Virus record (IMG/VR): IMGVR_UViG_3300046820_002270 | Span: 1 to 33,704 of that record | Length of the DNA: 33,704 nucleotides | From: a virus | Strand: one strand, 5' to 3' | In this document: one piece after another, positions 3,992-27,200 of the stretch | How positions within the stretch are numbered: position 1 is the first letter of the stretch | How the letters are laid out: each line of letters opens with the position of its first letter | Notes under the pieces: generated by a model | Told to the model about the DNA's origin: nothing | Seen by the model: the letters and a program-made list of their open reading frames with translations, nothing else | The model's database searches: none | Translations under genes and position numbers: made by a program

Positions 3992-6900
3992 TTAATATGT
4001 TCCGCCGTCAAGAGTGTTATACGCAACAACACCGCCGGATATTTGTAAGACTGTGCCTTCGCTACCTACACTTAGCTTTCTAAAACCGTTCGTGCTATTT
4101 GCAACGAGCATATCCTCAGCAGTATACGTATTCAAACCTGTACCACCAGAGTTACCTGCGAGAGGTGTTGACAACGTCAGCGTATTAGCAACGATAGCAA
4201 CGTTCAACGTGCTGTTTGCTGTTAAAGCAACGGTTGTTGAATTGGCAATAAAGCCTGTCAGACCTGCACCACCGGTTCTAATGAACGCTTGTAACGTTGC
4301 AAAGGCAAACGATGTGTTACCTGTATCAACGGTACCAGCTGGTGATGGATCTAATCCTTGGAACAGCTTGTAGATACCACCATCGCTTGCATCACGGAAC
4401 ATACCTGTGTGCTCGTGAGGAGAACCATCGCCTACTTCATAACTTCCGAAGAAACCAATATCAACGACATCACCGGTAGTGTTGTCAGACGCCAACTGAA
4501 TCATCGAGTCAGTAATGCTCAGGTTGTTGGCGCTAATAGTCGTCAATGTGCCGGTAACGTTTAGGTTACCCGATACAACAATGTCATTAACAGCAATTGT
4601 GTTAGCTGTTAGCTTATTGGTAATAGAAACGTTAGCACCAAACGAAGCGTTTGCTGCAACTTGCAGCGTTGTTGCAACGTTTGCAAAACCGTTTATTGTC
4701 GTGTTACCAAACGTTGCCGTAGCGTTGGTTGTTGTGAACCCCGACTGTGTAATCTGTACGTTGATTGTACTGTTACCGACAGAAATTACCGATGTATTAA
4801 CAACAACGTTTGCACCAACGGCAATATGTGTTGTGTTAACAACGGAGTTGCCTGCTGTTAATCCTGTCTGTGTAATGACTGTATTAACAGTTGAGTTACC
4901 AATATACAGAGCCGTCGCGTTCGCAATAACGTTTGCGCCAACAGAGATAACGGAGTTGTTAACAACGACGGTCCGTGTTGCTGTTGCGTATGAAGTACCG
5001 ACTTGTGTAGTGACGGCGTTAACAGTTGAGTTACCAATATACAGAGCCGTCACGTTCGCAATAACGTTTGCACCAGCTGCCAATACTGTTGTGTTAACAA
5101 CAGATGAGCCAACAAGAACAGCAATGGGGCTAACGTTTACTGAAGCTGTGCTGTTAGCAACGCGAATCTGTGTTGAGGTAACGGAAGCGTTAACAGTACT
5201 GTTACCAACAAATAACTGTGTCGTATTTGCAGCAACGTTTGCACCAACATACACACCTGTGGTGTTTGATACGACAGTAACGGTACCGTCGGTTATAACG
5301 ATATCGTTAAAGTCAAGGTTGGTGTATTGTGTGGTGTTACCAACACGAAGAGTAGACGTATTAGCGACGACGTTTGCGCCAACAAACACACCTGTTGTAT
5401 TTGACGTAACCGTAACCGTGCTGTCGGTTATAATGACATCGTTAAAGTCGATAGTTGTAGACTGAGTCGTATTGCCAATACGCAGTGCTGATACGTTAGC
5501 AACGACGTTTGCGCCAACAGATATTTGTGATGTGTTAACGACAGTGGTTACTGTGCCGTTTTGTGCGACGACGCCATTTTGAGACGTGACGCTGTTTACT
5601 GTTGAGTTACCAACAAACACAGTAGTTGTATTTGCAATAACGTTTGCACCAGCTGCTACGACTGTCGTATTGACTCTACTTGTTCCAACATCAATAGACG
5701 TAGGTGTAACGTTCGATGAGCTCGATGCATTTCTAACTGTAATAAACGAGCTGTTTGTGTATGCATTAACAGTCGAATTGCCAACCAGTATAGCATCACC
5801 ATCAATGGTGACATTGCTAACTGTCAGCATTGAACCCTTGAGTTGTAGGTTACCAGCTGTCAACGTCGTGTTGACAGTACTGTTGCCCATGAACAGGGTT
5901 GTTGCATTAAGAGTGACGTTTGCACCAACAGATACTGTTGTTGAATTAACAGTTGAAATACCAACTGTAAATGCAATCGGTGTAACGTTTGCTGTACCAG
6001 TACTATTGGCTGCTTGTATCAGTGTCGATACAACAGTTGCATTGACAGTGCTGTTACCAACGAGCAAGCCGGTCGCTGTTGTAATAACGTTTGCACCAAC
6101 AGATACAGCTGTCGAGTTGACTGTTGAAATGCCAACGGCAAATGCTGTTGGAGTAACGTTTGCCGTACCTGTGCTGTTTGCTACCTGTATCAACGTTGAC
6201 GTAGCAGTTGAATTAACGGTACTATTACCCATGAACAACGCTGTTGCGTTGAGAATAGCGTTTGCACCAACAGATACAGCTGTCGAGTTGACGGTAGAGA
6301 TACCAACAGCAAATGCTGTTGGAGTGACGTTTGCCGTACCGGTACTGTTCGCTGCTTGTATTAGTGTTGAAACGACAGTTGCATTAACGGTGCTGTTACC
6401 AACAAGTAATCCAGTTGTGGTTGCAACGACGTTCGAGCCAACGGAAACCTGTGTTGTGTTGACAGTGGTCGTGACAGAAGGACTAAAAGCAACAATACCG
6501 ACAGGACTGTGAACCGCGTTGACAGTACTGTTACCAGTGTACACAGATGTCAGGTTTGCAACAACGTTAGCACCGATAGAAATTTGCGCAGTGTTAACTG
6601 TTGTAGTGACGGTAGGACTTGCAACAACGACGCCTGTCTGCGTCGACACAACGTTAACTGTGCTGTTACCAACATACAAGGCTGTGGTATTACCAACAAC
6701 GTTAGCGCCAATGTTGATGCTACCGTTTACAGTTAGCGCATCAGTTGCTGCAACAAACGTGAGACCAGCGTCACTCGTTAAACCACCAGTAGAGTTACCA
6801 AACGCAACCTGCGTTGCAGTGACAACACCCGTACGCGTGTCGATGTAGTTCTTAACAGCCCACGATGTGACAAGTTCGTTATTCGAACCAGCCGCAGTAG

Positions 6901-8418: not shown

Positions 8419-9026
8419 TACACGACGATGTTTTGATTCAATAGTTCTGGTCTGAATTCTGTAATCAACCCATCAATGAACGCCTCGAGCTCGACCTTGT
8501 GTGGCCATTCGTTGTAGGCCGTGTAGGTTGTTTCTTTTTCAAACACATCCTCGTACCACGTAATAGTTTTATTGTTATCTGCACAGAACTTCAACAACAA
8601 ACAGGTCGAGATCAAGTTTCTCTCGATCAACGGACGTACGAAATGGAAGGGACGGACCGTTGGCGTACTACCGTAGTAATTCTTTATAACATGGTTTGCA
8701 TGTGATCGCAATGAATTGCGAATGTTTTTGCGTGTGATATAAGCTGTAGCGCCACCCCATGCCCCAACATCACAGTTGAGTGCATTGACGAGATACATAG
8801 AATTAGGATCGGACAAGTTTGCCCAAGCTGCGAGAAATTCCGCCATAGTATACGTTGGCTGAATTCCAGTCTCGTGGAAGTCACGTTTCCAATTTGGACG
8901 TGTTGTATTGGTTCCTACGACTGCGGGGCTGTAATTAATCTCACCTTTGAAAGGTATACCAGCCTCTAGCGCTTTGTGGATAGTGAAAGCTGTAGAGCCT
9001 GAGCGAGCTGTTCCTACAATATACAT
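8418..9026 (-). CDS. Sulfotransferase-like P-loop protein
   Basis: This is a 202-aa protein that begins MYIVGTARSGSTAFTIHKAL. The GTARSGST stretch (residues 5-12), at the end of the first beta strand and the start of a helix, fits the 5'-phosphosulfate-binding loop of PAPS-dependent sulfotransferases. Further on are WKRDFHETG, a SNSMYLVN-type strand and FHFVRPLIERNLISTCLLLK at about 126-145, where an R...S pair could bind the 3'-phosphate of PAPS (RPLIERN in place of the usual RdP..r.vS). The C-terminal part (ITWYEDVF) resembles the WYEDL segment of the family. It would transfer sulfate to a hydroxyl of a sugar or tyrosine. It is divergently oriented to the plus-strand glycosyltransferase and coupled to the methyltransferase. 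An alternative is another P-loop kinase-like enzyme. Confidence 0.65.
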   Translation of the reverse strand: MYIVGTARSGSTAFTIHKALEAGIPFKGEINYSPAVVGTNTTRPNWKRDFHETGIQPTYTMAEFLAAWANLSDPNSMYLVNALNCDVGAWGGATAYITRKNIRNSLRSHANHVIKNYYGSTPTVRPFHFVRPLIERNLISTCLLLKFCADNNKTITWYEDVFEKETTYTAYNEWPHKVELEAFIDGLITEFRPELLNQNIVV

Positions 9027-9050
9027 ATATGCACCTCTGAAAGTTATTTT

Positions 9051-9899
9051 ATGATGATAAACATCGTTTGTGTTAAAATTGGGACGAAGTATGGAAGTAT
9101 TTATGCAAACAAGTTGTACGAGACATGCGTGCGTAACATTTCACAACAATTCCGCTTTTTTTGTTACACAGATGATGTAGCTGGTCTTGATCCAAGCATT
9201 ATACCTATACAGTTTGTCGACCACGGCCTAGATATCATTGTTTTCAATAAACTATTTCTCCTAAGTGATCAATTTGCTGCACACATTGGTGAACATCCAA
9301 CATTCTTCTTCGATCTTGATATTGTAATTAAAAACAACATCGACTCTCTGATTGATAGATCAAAACACTCTCCCGACTTCAAAGTAATCAATGCTGTTTG
9401 GAAATCTTTGAAGAAGGAAGATACATTTCCCCCCTATCTCGATCACACAGTCAATTCCAGTTGCATGTTCTGGACTCCATATACGACAAATCATATATGG
9501 GACAGCTTCCTTGCTAAAAAACAACAATTCCAACAAACATACTGGCGCGGCATGGATGGGTTTCTCTTTTACGAGCATAACATCCGTGGTGGATTACCGG
9601 AAGACGGTTTTTATTCCTATCTATACGACATCGACAGGAAGGTTAAACGTATTATCACCAACCCTGAGGAATATAAGAAAGTTAAGGCGTCAATTCCCAT
9701 TGTCCTCTTCAACGGCCCCACAACACAAGAAGACATTGACTGTTTCATTAACAACAACTACGAGAGCGACTACTTGCGCTTTGAAGAAACCTTTTCAAGC
9801 TCCCCAGAACGCAGAAAAGAAATTCAAAAAGAGATCAACGACGACATGCAGAAGCGTCAGCTCTCAATGTCATCACACATATCTTCCCACATTCCCTGA
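9051..9899 (+). CDS. Glycosyltransferase-like protein (GT-A, plus strand)
   Basis: This is a 282-aa protein and the only convincing plus-strand gene. Its N-terminal half reads as a GT-A nucleotide-sugar fold: strand INIVCVKIGTKYGSIYANKL, YETCVRNI helix, FRFFCYTDD at 35-42, and FFFDLDIVI with a D88-L-D90 metal-binding DxD. A later WRGMDGFLFYEHN segment could form part of the acceptor site. The last 30 residues are hydrophilic and Ser/His-rich. Two ATGs are adjacent (9051, 9054); no strong ribosome site or late box precedes them. It faces away from the sulfotransferase gene (24-bp gap) and its last 43 bases overlap the 3' end of the oxygenase gene tail to tail. The opposite strand suggests a later insertion (moron-like). 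Donor and acceptor are unknown. Confidence 0.75.
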   Translation: MMINIVCVKIGTKYGSIYANKLYETCVRNISQQFRFFCYTDDVAGLDPSIIPIQFVDHGLDIIVFNKLFLLSDQFAAHIGEHPTFFFDLDIVIKNNIDSLIDRSKHSPDFKVINAVWKSLKKEDTFPPYLDHTVNSSCMFWTPYTTNHIWDSFLAKKQQFQQTYWRGMDGFLFYEHNIRGGLPEDGFYSYLYDIDRKVKRIITNPEEYKKVKASIPIVLFNGPTTQEDIDCFINNNYESDYLRFEETFSSSPERRKEIQKEINDDMQKRQLSMSSHISSHIP

Positions 9900-22837: not shown

Positions 22838-23260
22838 TTAAGCCGCGACGTCTTCAAATTCACTTACAGGCGGTATGTAGATTTGAACGCGAATATGACT
22901 TCTGAAGTACGAGAGTGCGAGCGTATCGTAATTATCAGGTAAGCTTGCAACATTCAATGTTGTTAGTATCACTTCTTTAACACCTGCTACAGCATTTGCT
23001 GCCGCTTGCGCTTGTGCAAGAGGCGTCTCGCCACCAGCTAATCCCGAGTCATAGTAATAATCAAATTCAACATATCCATCCGCGTCCGTTTTCAACGTGT
23101 CACCGAGCTTACCGCCAACTGGTTTCAATTTTGATCCATCGACTAACTGACGCTCAAAATAAAACTTATGAATAGTCATTGGTTGCAGACCATTAACTGC
23201 AAATCTAAAGACTTGTTCACGTGAAATAAACTGTACTCGGGGGTCTTTTCTTTCTGGCAT
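22838..23260 (-). CDS. Small beta-rich tail protein (140 aa)
   Basis: A 140-aa protein with VFRFAVNGLQPMTIHKFYFE then RQLVDGSKLKPVGGKLGDTL and KTDADGYVEFDYYYDSG. The pattern F-x-V-x-G-L-x-P-x-T-x-H-x-F-x-F followed by TD-x-x-G-x-x-x-F is familiar from myovirus baseplate and fibre proteins, where it forms an Ig-like domain. The C terminus (YFRSHIRVQIYIPPVSEF) is a beta strand followed by acidic residues. It lies between the papain-like enzyme and the AQTF protein, with 14-16 bp gaps and AG-rich ribosome sites (AAAGAGAA). No catalytic residues are evident. It is probably a structural adaptor for the AQTF protein. Confidence 0.62.
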   Translation of the reverse strand: MPERKDPRVQFISREQVFRFAVNGLQPMTIHKFYFERQLVDGSKLKPVGGKLGDTLKTDADGYVEFDYYYDSGLAGGETPLAQAQAAANAVAGVKEVILTTLNVASLPDNYDTLALSYFRSHIRVQIYIPPVSEFEDVAA

Positions 23261-23276: not shown

Positions 23277-23768
23277 TTAAACAGGTGCAAGTTGCATACT
23301 TTGCGTTTCAATTATACGTGCTTTCGGATGCTTGATCAATTGGCGAAATAAATCACCGGGAGATATTTTCTTCTTTGTATCGTCGAATAGTTTGATATCA
23401 ACCTTTTCAAGTCCATATGCACAAAACTCCGAACACATCCATAAAGAAGAATCTTTCCAGTTTTTCTTCTTGCGAGGTATAAGCACGTTAAATGGTGCTA
23501 ACGCTGTGTAGTCGTAAGGAATACCTATTTGTGTCTTTGCCCAGTGATAAACTCTTCGCTCTTCTTCTGGCGTTATATCAACCTCAACAAATGTCTGTAC
23601 AGGATATTTTTTCTTTGTCGAAACAACAACACCCATTTCCATTGCTGGAAAAACAGACACTCCATTAGAAAAAACAAACTCGCAATGAGAATAGCGAGAC
23701 CACGTCCACAACCTTACCAAAGGGGATAGAGGAAGATAGATGTGGTTCGCACTAAATTTAACTATCAT
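23277..23768 (-). CDS. Permuted papain-like (YiiX/NlpC-P60-type) enzyme
   Basis: A 163-aa protein with the circularly permuted papain layout: a catalytic-type His first (SRYSHCEFVFSNG, H28), then VSVFPAMEMGVVV, an IGIPYDYTALAPFNVL segment at about 81-96, and the candidate nucleophile in WMCSEFCAYGLE (C112). YiiX, LRAT and related NlpC/P60-superfamily proteins have the same order and act on peptide, lipid or amide bonds. No signal peptide or transmembrane helix is seen. I chose the ATG at 23768, which overlaps the stop of the upstream gene by 11 bases, over the TTG at 23819. Placement in the baseplate region suggests a tail-associated cell-wall amidase or a processing protease; the neighbour upstream carries a Hint domain. 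The function is not certain. Confidence 0.68.
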   Translation of the reverse strand: MIVKFSANHIYLPLSPLVRLWTWSRYSHCEFVFSNGVSVFPAMEMGVVVSTKKKYPVQTFVEVDITPEEERRVYHWAKTQIGIPYDYTALAPFNVLIPRKKKNWKDSSLWMCSEFCAYGLEKVDIKLFDDTKKKISPGDLFRQLIKHPKARIIETQSMQLAPV

Positions 23769-24228
23769 TTGATTTTCCAAAAATTGCTTTACGGAGACGT
23801 GACTGGAACCACAAAGCAAAAACAGGATAAAGTTTGTCTCTGTTACGAACGCCCCAAGCTACACTCTTTCCGACAGCATTGCCAATCATGTTATCGTTGT
23901 TCAGAACAAACGTATTTATCGCTGTTGTAATATTATACATGCGAGCCTTAGCAGATGCTGGCCATGCATTCAGTCCAACAGTGTTCTCCAACATATAAAC
24001 ATATCCCTTGTATTCTTCTTCCGTCAACCAGCCACGCTTATTCAGTACAAACATATTACCGTTTCCGATAATGTTGTGTACCTTTTGACCGTTTGCGTAA
24101 TGGGTGAACCCAGTCTTGAACATTAAGTTGTACACAACAATTGGAGTCTCGTTAACGATTATTCTTGGAACCTCAACAACCTTTACAGGTGCAAGCCAAG
24201 GTGCAAGATACTCACATTCCCCCGACAT
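23758..24228 (-). CDS. C-terminal half of a split Hint domain plus unknown domain
   Basis: A 156-aa frame (from ATG 24228) that begins inside the 3' end of the DUF4815/Hint gene in the -1 frame. Its first about 50 residues contain the C-terminal Hint motifs: NETPIVVYNLMFKTGFTHY followed by ANGQKVHN, matching block F and the HN of block G. The residue after HN is Ile, not Cys/Ser/Thr. About 105 further residues follow (VLNKRGWLTEEEYKGYVYML ... FALWFQSRLRKAIFGKSNDS), which I do not recognise. It is either expressed as an extension of the upstream protein (frameshift, or one missing base), or from its own ATG, which has an AGGTGAG ribosome-site-like stretch 8 bases upstream. On its own the frame would hold half a domain. 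Confidence 0.65.
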   Translation of the reverse strand: MSGECEYLAPWLAPVKVVEVPRIIVNETPIVVYNLMFKTGFTHYANGQKVHNIIGNGNMFVLNKRGWLTEEEYKGYVYMLENTVGLNAWPASAKARMYNITTAINTFVLNNDNMIGNAVGKSVAWGVRNRDKLYPVFALWFQSRLRKAIFGKSNDS

Positions 24229-27200
24229 GCACAAAGCTCACCTGCCTCATTGAAGAAGGCGTGTTGTTCTGTAATATATGGGTCATGTTCAATGTTTGTT
24301 GTGAACAGTCGACGACCAACCTCATAATCGGTAAGCTTGATACCAAGTACTTCGTTTGCTTCACCAGTGAACGCATCAAGTACAAGATCGCCAGCAACGA
24401 TATCTGCAATACGTTTTTCTGTTCCGTCAAACATTTTTACCAGGGTATCTGCAGTGAAGCATTCACCGCCAGAACCGCCATCACCGTAACCACCGACGTC
24501 GGCGCTGTAGCCGATGTCTGTGTACCCGCCATCACTGTAAGAGGGAGGAGGAGGATCAGGAACAAGTGTGACTTCACCACGAGCAAGTATTGAGAAAGAT
24601 GACGGTGTTATTGTACCATCACCAGCAAATTGCATCCGCTGACCATCAGAACCAAGGACGCTACTCTTGATACTTTGATCTATCAGAACTACCGATGCAA
24701 ACGGTAGCATCAACGTATCGCCGTTTATGATTGACGCAGCTGTGTTTGCGTGCGTACGATCAAATTGCGATTCAAAATTAACCTGACGTGTTGGCGGCTT
24801 CAAGAAACCACGCTGCTGATCAATAGTAGCTGCATATTCCTTGTGACCCGTATCTACCTTTGTGTAATCATTAAATGTATCAACAAAGAATCCGTTCTTG
24901 AATCTATTTGTTGTTGGTACGACGCCGCTAGGAATAGTAAGTTCCTTTACAGCAGCCTCAACCTGATTTAAAGAGGTTTGATATTCAACCGCTTGCAAAC
25001 GGCGCTCAAGTGCACCAATATCCTTCATGGTAAAGCGACGTGGTTGCGCCCCTCTCGCATCACGGGAGCGAACCTGGGATATCTTGAAGTTGTTTAGTCG
25101 CTTATTAACACTACCACCCGAACTTGCCGTACGCTTCTCCGACAATTCTGTTGTAAACGGACTCAATCCCGCAGGAATAGAAGGATACGGAGGCACCTTT
25201 AAAATAGACAGAGTCATTGAGTCTTTTTGCTCCGGAGGAGCCATTGGTGTCGTTGGTGCTGGAGCACCCTCCAATACCTCAAATGTTCCATCCTTTCGCG
25301 CAATTACGCGATCAACGCGGCTGTTATAAAACTCCACATCAAAAGAAACAATTGAATCAGGAACAGGGAAGAATTGATTGTCACCGCTAAGCGCAAATGT
25401 ATTTGCTGGGTTTACCGTAGCACCACCAGCGGTGTTTGAAAGCACTGCTGTGTTTGATGCAAAAGGACGGAAATCAATTACGTCGCGTAAATCGTAATTG
25501 ACGCCCTTTGTTGTGCTTACTTCCGGCATCTCATAGATGCTGATAACGGTACCGTTTGCTGTCAGCTGTGTCAAGTTGGCAGTAGCGTTAACCGTATAGG
25601 AGTTGAAGGTAAAGAAACCTTCATTACCGTTTGTGGACAACGCATCAATCTGAACAAGGAAGTAGTCACCTGAAGTGATGGTGACTGGTGCGCCTACGTT
25701 CAGTAAGAGCTTTGCGTTTCTTGTTGCATTCTCATCTTCACTAACATCAACAGAGAAGTATTTTGTAACATCTGTGCTTGATGTACTTACAGAAGAGTTA
25801 GCCGCTTTGTATACTTTTCTCAAACGGAACGCACCGGGAATGCCAAGCGCCCACGGGCCGTCTACTCCACCAGGGTTTGCGGCCGTGTTAATTTTAGTAA
25901 ACAAGCCTCGTCTGACACTCTTTGATATGGGCGTTGCGTTTGCCTGACGTACATTGTGAATTGCAATTGCGTTAACAGTACTTGCAAGAGACGCACTAAT
26001 GTTAATCGTCAACGTTTTACCATCAACGGAGTTTGATATAGTGCGTGCCGACCGTGTAGATGTTGGGATTGGATAAAAAGCGGGGAAGAAAAGAACAGCA
26101 TTACCCGTAACAGAGTTAGAAGGCGCCGTCACAAGCGACACTGCTGTGCTGTTGATAATAGCGTTAACCTGGCCAACAACGCGAGCTGATGCTGTGTCGT
26201 TTGCTGTGGATGTGTTACCAAAACGAATAAAATCGCCTGGTTCAAAACTACTTGTCCATCCAGCTGTCGTACCAGTGACGTTTGTTTGACCTGCGGTTAC
26301 AGTAAACGTACCAGTTAGGTTTGCTGCAACCTGTGTATTAGACTGCGGCATAACAATGACGTCACGTTCCTCTACAGACGATAGTGTAGCACCAGTTGTG
26401 TATGGATGCTCAGCTGTACCACCCAATGGACCTATACTAATGAGACCCGTCGATGCGAGGGAGGTATTTGAAGCTGTTCTGTAAGTGTAGGTAATATTAT
26501 CAATTGACGCTACCCCCTGGATACCGATTGGGAACAGCATTTGATCTTTTACTGTGTCTTGAAGCACAGCTACACTCAATCCTGTTGTTGTATCTACTGT
26601 TGTAACTGCATCACAGATACCGTCTTCCGGAGATCCATCATAGTAAACAGATCGTACGTTACGGAAAGTATATCCAGCACTGATGTTGACATCAAACAAA
26701 TAAAGTCTGTAGACACAAGACGCTGTACCAACTACACCACTATCGTACATTATGCTTCGAACACGTGCAGTACCAATTTGTGTACCAGCCGGAGTAATAC
26801 TTCCAGTCGTACTAATGGTACCAGCCGTAACATAACCTTTTGCGGTGTTGTACAGATTAACCGTATCACCAGCAGTAAATTTAAAGAATCCAGCAAGCTC
26901 TTTTACGTACAAGAAGTTTCCGTAGTTTACGGAAATACTGTGGTTAGAAGAGTTCGAAGTTGTAGACGAGCGCTTGATATCCAAATAGTTGTTGTATGAT
27001 GTAGAAACGCGGTGGCCGCTGATGTATGCGAGACCTGGGTCAATCAACACATTGACGTAGTCGTTGTTTGCAACACTCTTATCACGAGTCGTCACCTGGA
27101 ACAAATCACCAACAAAGTCACCAGCCGATTCGCGAGTGCGACGTGCAAACTCTTCCGCAAGACCCGAATAAACAGTTGATCTGTTTTCCTTGTATGGGAA

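Follow-up and report, generated by a model that had tools for sequence, protein, structure and literature searches.

The stretch of viral DNA analysed here (IMG/VR record IMGVR_UViG_3300046820_002270, positions 1 to 33,704; hereafter the window) carries on its minus strand a 1,449-amino-acid open reading frame (ORF; 28532-24183) that matches the DUF4815 family (PF16075, E 1.8e-49, 169 bits for a cut-off of 30) and ends, as read, in half a Hint domain. This family bears the annotation VrlC in many T4-like phages; according to PMC7029224, VrlC belongs integrally to baseplates built in two layers, in which it takes the place of T4 gp7. The C-terminal end of the ORF reads GGSGGE-CFTADTLV...PYITEQH...LCA, followed by about a dozen residues off the family pattern and a stop. 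Cys1358 (codon 24461-24459), CFTADTLVKMFDG and TEQH all lie inside this frame, where the N-terminal half of the Hint domain, with Cys1 and blocks A and B, occupies 24461-24228. The other half is encoded in an overlapping -1 frame (24234-23758), which carries on as MSGECEYLAPWL...VYNLMFKTGFTHYANGQKVHN and contributes CEYLAPW, block F (VYNLMFKTGFTHYANG) and block G with KVHN (24228-24073). Beyond the terminal HN, this second frame encodes a further 104 residues that form a conserved tail, helical for the most part (24072-23761; conservation taken from alignments, helices from a model of the relative L002). The end of the tail ORF is overlapped by the start of a partner gene (23768-23277, minus strand) encoding a 163-amino-acid protein. 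A preliminary description of the locus had already placed the Cys and the TxxH motif in the long frame and block F and HN in the -1 frame, and its coordinates and residues agree with ours; it described both halves correctly and contains nothing on the tail or on the partner gene.

A profile built from 11 Hint relatives gathered in wider scans aligns with the first frame (E 5e-35) at its positions 4-92 and with the second (E 3e-52) at its positions 90-239, the latter including the tail. Since the two frames match consecutive parts of one profile, the halves do not occur together by chance. The earlier view that they belong to a single Hint domain on a baseplate-type protein is thus upheld by the profile, by the PF16075 match and by L002, where the whole is continuous. 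The same profile matches solved Hint domains: 6tmm (E 2.4e-10), the BIL domain 2lwy, and the inteins gp41-1 and PI-SceI. We modelled the Hint and tail of L002 with AlphaFold2 (pLDDT 82). The structural matches of this model, which span residues 10-144 only, are to Tetrahymena BIL2 (Foldseek E 1.4e-9; Z 16.2 over 129 residues), a C. thermocellum BIL domain (Z 13.6), Vint (Z 12.0) and hedgehog 1at0 (Z 11.4). Scored as single sequences against the Hint families of Pfam, neither L002 nor the window reaches the curated cut-offs, so the claim rests on the family profile and the fold, by which the predicted Hint identity is solid. Among named phages, a tblastn search with the Hint and tail of L002 gave no match, and two other Hint and tail sequences gave one weak match each, one of them to a C-terminal Hint-like domain of Providencia phage PSTNGR1. 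A scan of bacterial and archaeal genomes yielded 23 loci with distant Hint matches, and the label 'Hint domain containing protein' is already attached to several proteins of uncultured Caudovirales in databases.

Residues were counted in 26 distinct full-length relatives, whose matches span at least 150 profile positions and which divide into two subfamilies. The Thr and His of the block-B TxxH motif are kept in all 26, and Cys1 in 25, the exception being L149, possibly misaligned. The position of the terminal Asn is occupied by Asn in all eight members of subfamily 1 and by Ser in all 18 of subfamily 2. The two tail types could not be demonstrated to be related (hhalign probability 0.5%). The residue that follows the terminal Asn is Ile in the window (HN-Ile) and Ile or Met in 8/8 subfamily-1 relatives, so that intein-type splicing is not expected. 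We rejected an identification as an intein, as there is no Cys, Ser or Thr after the Asn and no C-extein; DUF4815 relatives that lack a Hint stop before the linker. Cys1, a terminal Asn and no +1 nucleophile form the pattern of BIL domains, found in all eight members of subfamily 1 and, split across two frames, in the window. BIL domains without a +1 nucleophile mainly cleave, and in Hog domains the first acyl shift alone is used for cholesterol modification, as stated in PMC7664689.

The catalytic residues are kept in the window Hint, and cleavage activity is a prediction from these residues. The earlier statement that any real version of the domain implies self-cleavage of a baseplate subunit was too strong, given the Ser found throughout the sister subfamily. 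This Ser in place of the terminal Asn, together with the variable penultimate His, would suit a catalytically dead Hint that is retained at the C-terminus of tail proteins for a role in structure or assembly. However, Cys1 and the Thr and His of TxxH, which would serve the first acyl shift, are unlikely to be kept so consistently for the fold alone, and we regard a dead domain as possible but unlikely.

The partner protein is predicted to adopt a YiiX-like permuted papain fold. Its model (pLDDT 80) matches YiiX (2if6) with Z 13.9 and a cysteine peptidase of B. cereus (3kw0) with Z 12.8; the match to human HRASLS3 (4dot) is weaker, at Z 6.7. In an alignment of nine partner proteins, His28 and Cys112 are invariant (9/9), in the order His before Cys. 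By sequence, the protein gave no Pfam match of the permuted-papain kind, its profile matched structures in the PDB only weakly (3kw0, E 0.0026; 2if6, E 0.29), and it matches phrog_1128 (E 3e-24), a family labelled otherwise. According to PMC12994826 and PMC7387801, the acyl groups on which enzymes of the permuted papain class act are those of lipids or lipoproteins.

Homologs of the partner gene lie directly behind the Hint and tail in all eight subfamily-1 loci besides the window (L002, L088 and L127-L132), behind the Hint in none of the 18 distinct subfamily-2 loci, and in none of the 80 DUF4815 loci among the matches listed. The search made from the side of the enzyme returned 69 loci, ten of them close (48% or more) and 59 distant. 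Nine of the close relatives could be assessed, the newly found L177 among them, and each stands behind a Hint tail (the tenth, L179, begins at a contig end), while the DNA examined around each of the 59 distant ones contained no Hint match. With the window, the linkage holds in 10/10 assessable loci. The carriers upstream are DUF4815 proteins in the window and L002, Gly_rich_2 or PA14-type proteins in L088, L172 and L176, and, in L177, a 1,402-amino-acid protein with Gly_rich_2 and Big_2 domains, the start of which resembles a serine peptidase by eye. As judged from these comparisons and models, the Hint, its tail and the translationally coupled YiiX-like gene form a modular two-gene cassette on three kinds of carrier, one that also sits on unrelated Gly-rich proteins of predicted tail type.

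A carrier followed by a HINT domain, a C-terminal domain and a coupled downstream gene resembles the architecture of polymorphic toxins set out in PMC3482391, and permuted NlpC/P60 proteins are known as lipid-attacking T6SS effectors (PMC12994826). The tail of about 100 residues might then be a payload that the Hint frees and the phage tail delivers, and the YiiX-like protein a second effector or a regulator. Against this, the tail is helical and conserved within its subfamily rather than polymorphic, it matched no toxin family, the YiiX-like gene looks like an enzyme and not like an immunity gene, and both the terminal Asn and the partner gene are missing from subfamily 2. We find such a toxin-like release quite improbable.

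The Hint is patchily distributed on DUF4815 proteins, in a sample of DUF4815 loci that is biased. The window DUF4815 sequence is also matched by 12 distinct Hint-matching loci, ten of them among the 26 full-length ones and two (L022 and L168) with a partial Hint match. In L139 and L143, both with a subfamily-2 Hint, the DUF4815 part is 54-58% identical to it along its whole length; Pfam confirms DUF4815 in both and in L147. By sequence, the subfamily-2 Hint, without partner enzyme and terminal Asn, thus appears on other DUF4815 proteins. L007 and L008 (55% in the end region) finish in a Pro-rich stretch without a Hint, and, again among the matches listed, 79 of the 80 DUF4815 loci end without one, the Hint profile matching in L022 only. 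The gene that follows the cassette in the window (22838-23260, minus strand), a further gene of the baseplate region, was compared through translations by inspection, without a search: look-alikes stand directly behind the DUF4815 and Hint gene in L139 and L143 and behind the Hint-less DUF4815 of L008. In L009, the DUF4815 protein encoded from position 4001 ends in GGGGGGGGGC and a different extension of about 170 residues with hydrophobic stretches and no Hint match; this extension is another module at the same C-terminal site.

Other arrangements of the domain were encountered. In L153, L154, L155, L159-L161 and L163, long proteins carry the Hint close to their N-terminus; the remainder of the L159 protein is a GpJ-type tail tip (Pfam FNIII-A_GpJ), and the others (L153, L154, L155, L160, L161 and L163) were assigned to this type by length and position. 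A 613-amino-acid protein (L167, 5104-6942) contains three tandem Hint domains at residues 33-163, 165-298 and 299-430, and proteins of 1,344-1,371 residues in L164, L165, L166 and L169 have several Hint-like matches spaced within one ORF. Two short proteins of 379 residues (L134, 5554-6690, and L133) have a hydrophobic stretch just upstream of a subfamily-2 Hint.

In L002, which is 82-83% identical to the window across the DUF4815 part and 81% identical over the protein where aligned, DUF4815, Gly-rich linker, Hint and tail form a single frame of 1,596 amino acids. It is the one close relative returned by a scan of viral contigs that used the second-frame protein as query. We compared 37,000 of the 75,655 bases of its contig with the window: the large window ORFs are collinear with it across about 27 kb, and within this region only the DUF4815-Hint gene has parts in two window frames. 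The stop-to-stop ORF at 8421-9140 of the window (minus strand) matches the L002 contig near 33850 in a different frame in its upstream part, before the likely ATG. When 49 loci were scanned with the Hint profile, relatives on the strand of the match only and with duplicate loci included (L136-L138, L148 and L150), 48 matched, and only in the window did the match fall in two ORFs, the Hint being split in 0/47 of the others. A Hint borne by a single continuous chain or by a known split pair was not found in the window but is found in L002 and the relatives. The comparison of sequences thus indicates that the split is most likely private to the window contig, through a mutation or a sequence or assembly error. 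This fits one of the options offered previously, a lesion of one base, and the check on homologous loci proposed with it gave a continuous single frame in L002 and in the other Hint loci.

The place of the switch was scored against eight relatives. Joining the first frame through LCA to the second from Met24228 scored 25.9, and a switch at the G-run 18.4. Because the Met-Ser of the second frame aligns with [Ile/Met]-Ser in 8/8 relatives, a switch near 24228 outscores one at the G-run. The run of five C on the plus strand (five G on the minus strand) at 24219-24223 is real, and the ATG at 24228 is present, but the run is probably not the site of the switch, within a zone that extends over 24219-24236 on the minus strand. 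The preliminary description had joined the frames at this run with about 130 residues from Cys to Asn; that distance holds (133 residues with the switch at 24228), the position does not.

The two ORFs could also represent a naturally fractured Hint, as the same description had suggested: the DUF4815 protein with the N-terminal half and a separate chain of C-terminal half and tail, started at ATG 24228, would assemble and react in trans. The ATG is preceded at nine bases by AGGTGA, which resembles a Shine-Dalgarno sequence, every catalytic residue is retained across the two halves, and natural split inteins are divided near the point just after block B, as in the window break. However, this ATG is the aligned [Ile/Met] codon of the continuous frame, comparable ribosome-binding matches stand upstream of 31 of the 1,004 window ATGs and 6 of the 22 gene starts checked, ribosomes on the first frame would overrun the restart by about 45 bases, and none of the relatives found has a split domain. 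We consider a functional two-chain Hint very unlikely. As for the programmed -1 ribosomal frameshift that had been proposed at the G-run, where the long form would be made in fixed proportion, G runs can slip and the second frame does encode a conserved protein, but -1 slippery sites follow an X XXY YYZ heptamer that the codons CGG GGG AAT do not provide, the 100 bases downstream are no better folded than shuffles (z -0.50), the site is absent from L002, which like the other Hint loci is continuous, and homology sets the switch upstream of the run, so that this scheme, which is highly improbable, is rejected on site, RNA structure and conservation.

We favour, as the probable explanation of the locus, a modular Hint, tail and YiiX-like cassette on the DUF4815 C-terminus with BIL- or hedgehog-like chemistry, interrupted in the window by a private frame lesion near 24228. 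Several observations weigh against it. The penultimate His is lost in 7/8 subfamily-1 relatives, and Glu rather than Gly precedes the Cys in the window and L088. Besides the window protein, that of L002 is the only DUF4815 protein found with a subfamily-1 Hint. A trivial sequencing slip is made less likely by the position of the switch point outside any long homopolymer. No near-identical DNA copy turned up in a pattern scan that also missed the window's own record, which it may omit, so mutation and sequence or assembly error are inseparable here. Finally, the second frame is free of early stops and its substitutions are of the purifying type, which fits a recent break but also continued expression. 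Substitution patterns indicate coding constraint in both halves; as synonymous sites are near saturation (pS 0.66-0.74), dN/dS does not tell how old the break is.

In the favoured cassette, Cys1 and the His of TxxH would convert the peptide bond between linker and Cys into a thioester. Water or another nucleophile would then resolve it, either freeing the tail protein from the Hint and its tail or joining its C-terminus to some acceptor. Both the helical tail and the YiiX-like enzyme would take part in this event and probably choose the outcome, and in subfamily 1 cyclisation of the Asn could also release the tail. In the window contig, a one-base frame difference near 24228 would separate the Hint halves; as read, no window chain holds a whole Hint, and the processing could proceed only if the pieces act in trans or the break is an artefact. 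A more specific, tentative and rather unlikely version is a hedgehog-like conjugation, in which the Hint would cut a virion protein behind the Gly-rich linker, passing the thioester to an acceptor set by the tail and the YiiX/LRAT-like enzyme. This acceptor is possibly a lipid, by which a baseplate or fibre protein would be lipidated or anchored; the module would move between unrelated tail proteins and be present here, perhaps, in a newly fractured two-chain form.

The self-processing Hint domains described from phages are usually inteins that reside in enzymes of replication or packaging. Searches of the open-access literature for Hint domains of phage tail or baseplate proteins, a coverage that most subscription papers lie outside, turned up no description of the Hint, tail and YiiX-like arrangement. 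The mobile cassette on phage tail proteins is most likely the larger find, and the frame split private and ordinary. If the cassette is indeed swapped among baseplate and fibre-type proteins, it would constitute a new way to mature or modify the virion tail, and would offer a testable link from phage tails to hedgehog-type chemistry. The window also illustrates how a frame break in a single contig can pass for a programmed or a split gene as long as its relatives have not been read.

Compared with known systems, the phage Hint is akin to BIL domains, and to Tetrahymena BIL2 (6y75/6tmm) in particular, in its fold, in Cys1 and TxxH, in the terminal Asn of subfamily 1 and in the lack of a splicing nucleophile after it. 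Unlike BIL domains, it resides on tail proteins, has mostly lost the penultimate His, and precedes a conserved helical tail and, coupled with it, a YiiX-like gene. Phage inteins in TerL, ribonucleotide reductase (RNR) and other enzymes share the Hint fold; as PMC3556154 and PMC5526547 describe them, they interrupt conserved enzyme sites and splice out, whereas the window Hint stands at the C-terminal end behind a Gly-rich linker and is followed by no extein. The carrier resembles the DUF4815/VrlC proteins of T4-like phages by its PF16075 match and differs from most of the members sampled in not ending without a Hint. The partner shares its predicted fold and the invariant His before Cys with YaeF/YiiX-like permuted NlpC/P60 enzymes and LRAT/HRASLS proteins, from which it is set apart by its tie to a Hint cassette and by the absence of a Pfam sequence match. 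The hedgehog Hog domain has the Hint fold, Cys1 and TxxH, and a C-terminal region after the Hint; it lacks a terminal Asn, and in this subfamily 2 resembles it. In contrast to hedgehog, the phage carriers are virion proteins, and the likeness of the phage tail to the sterol-binding region is one of position.

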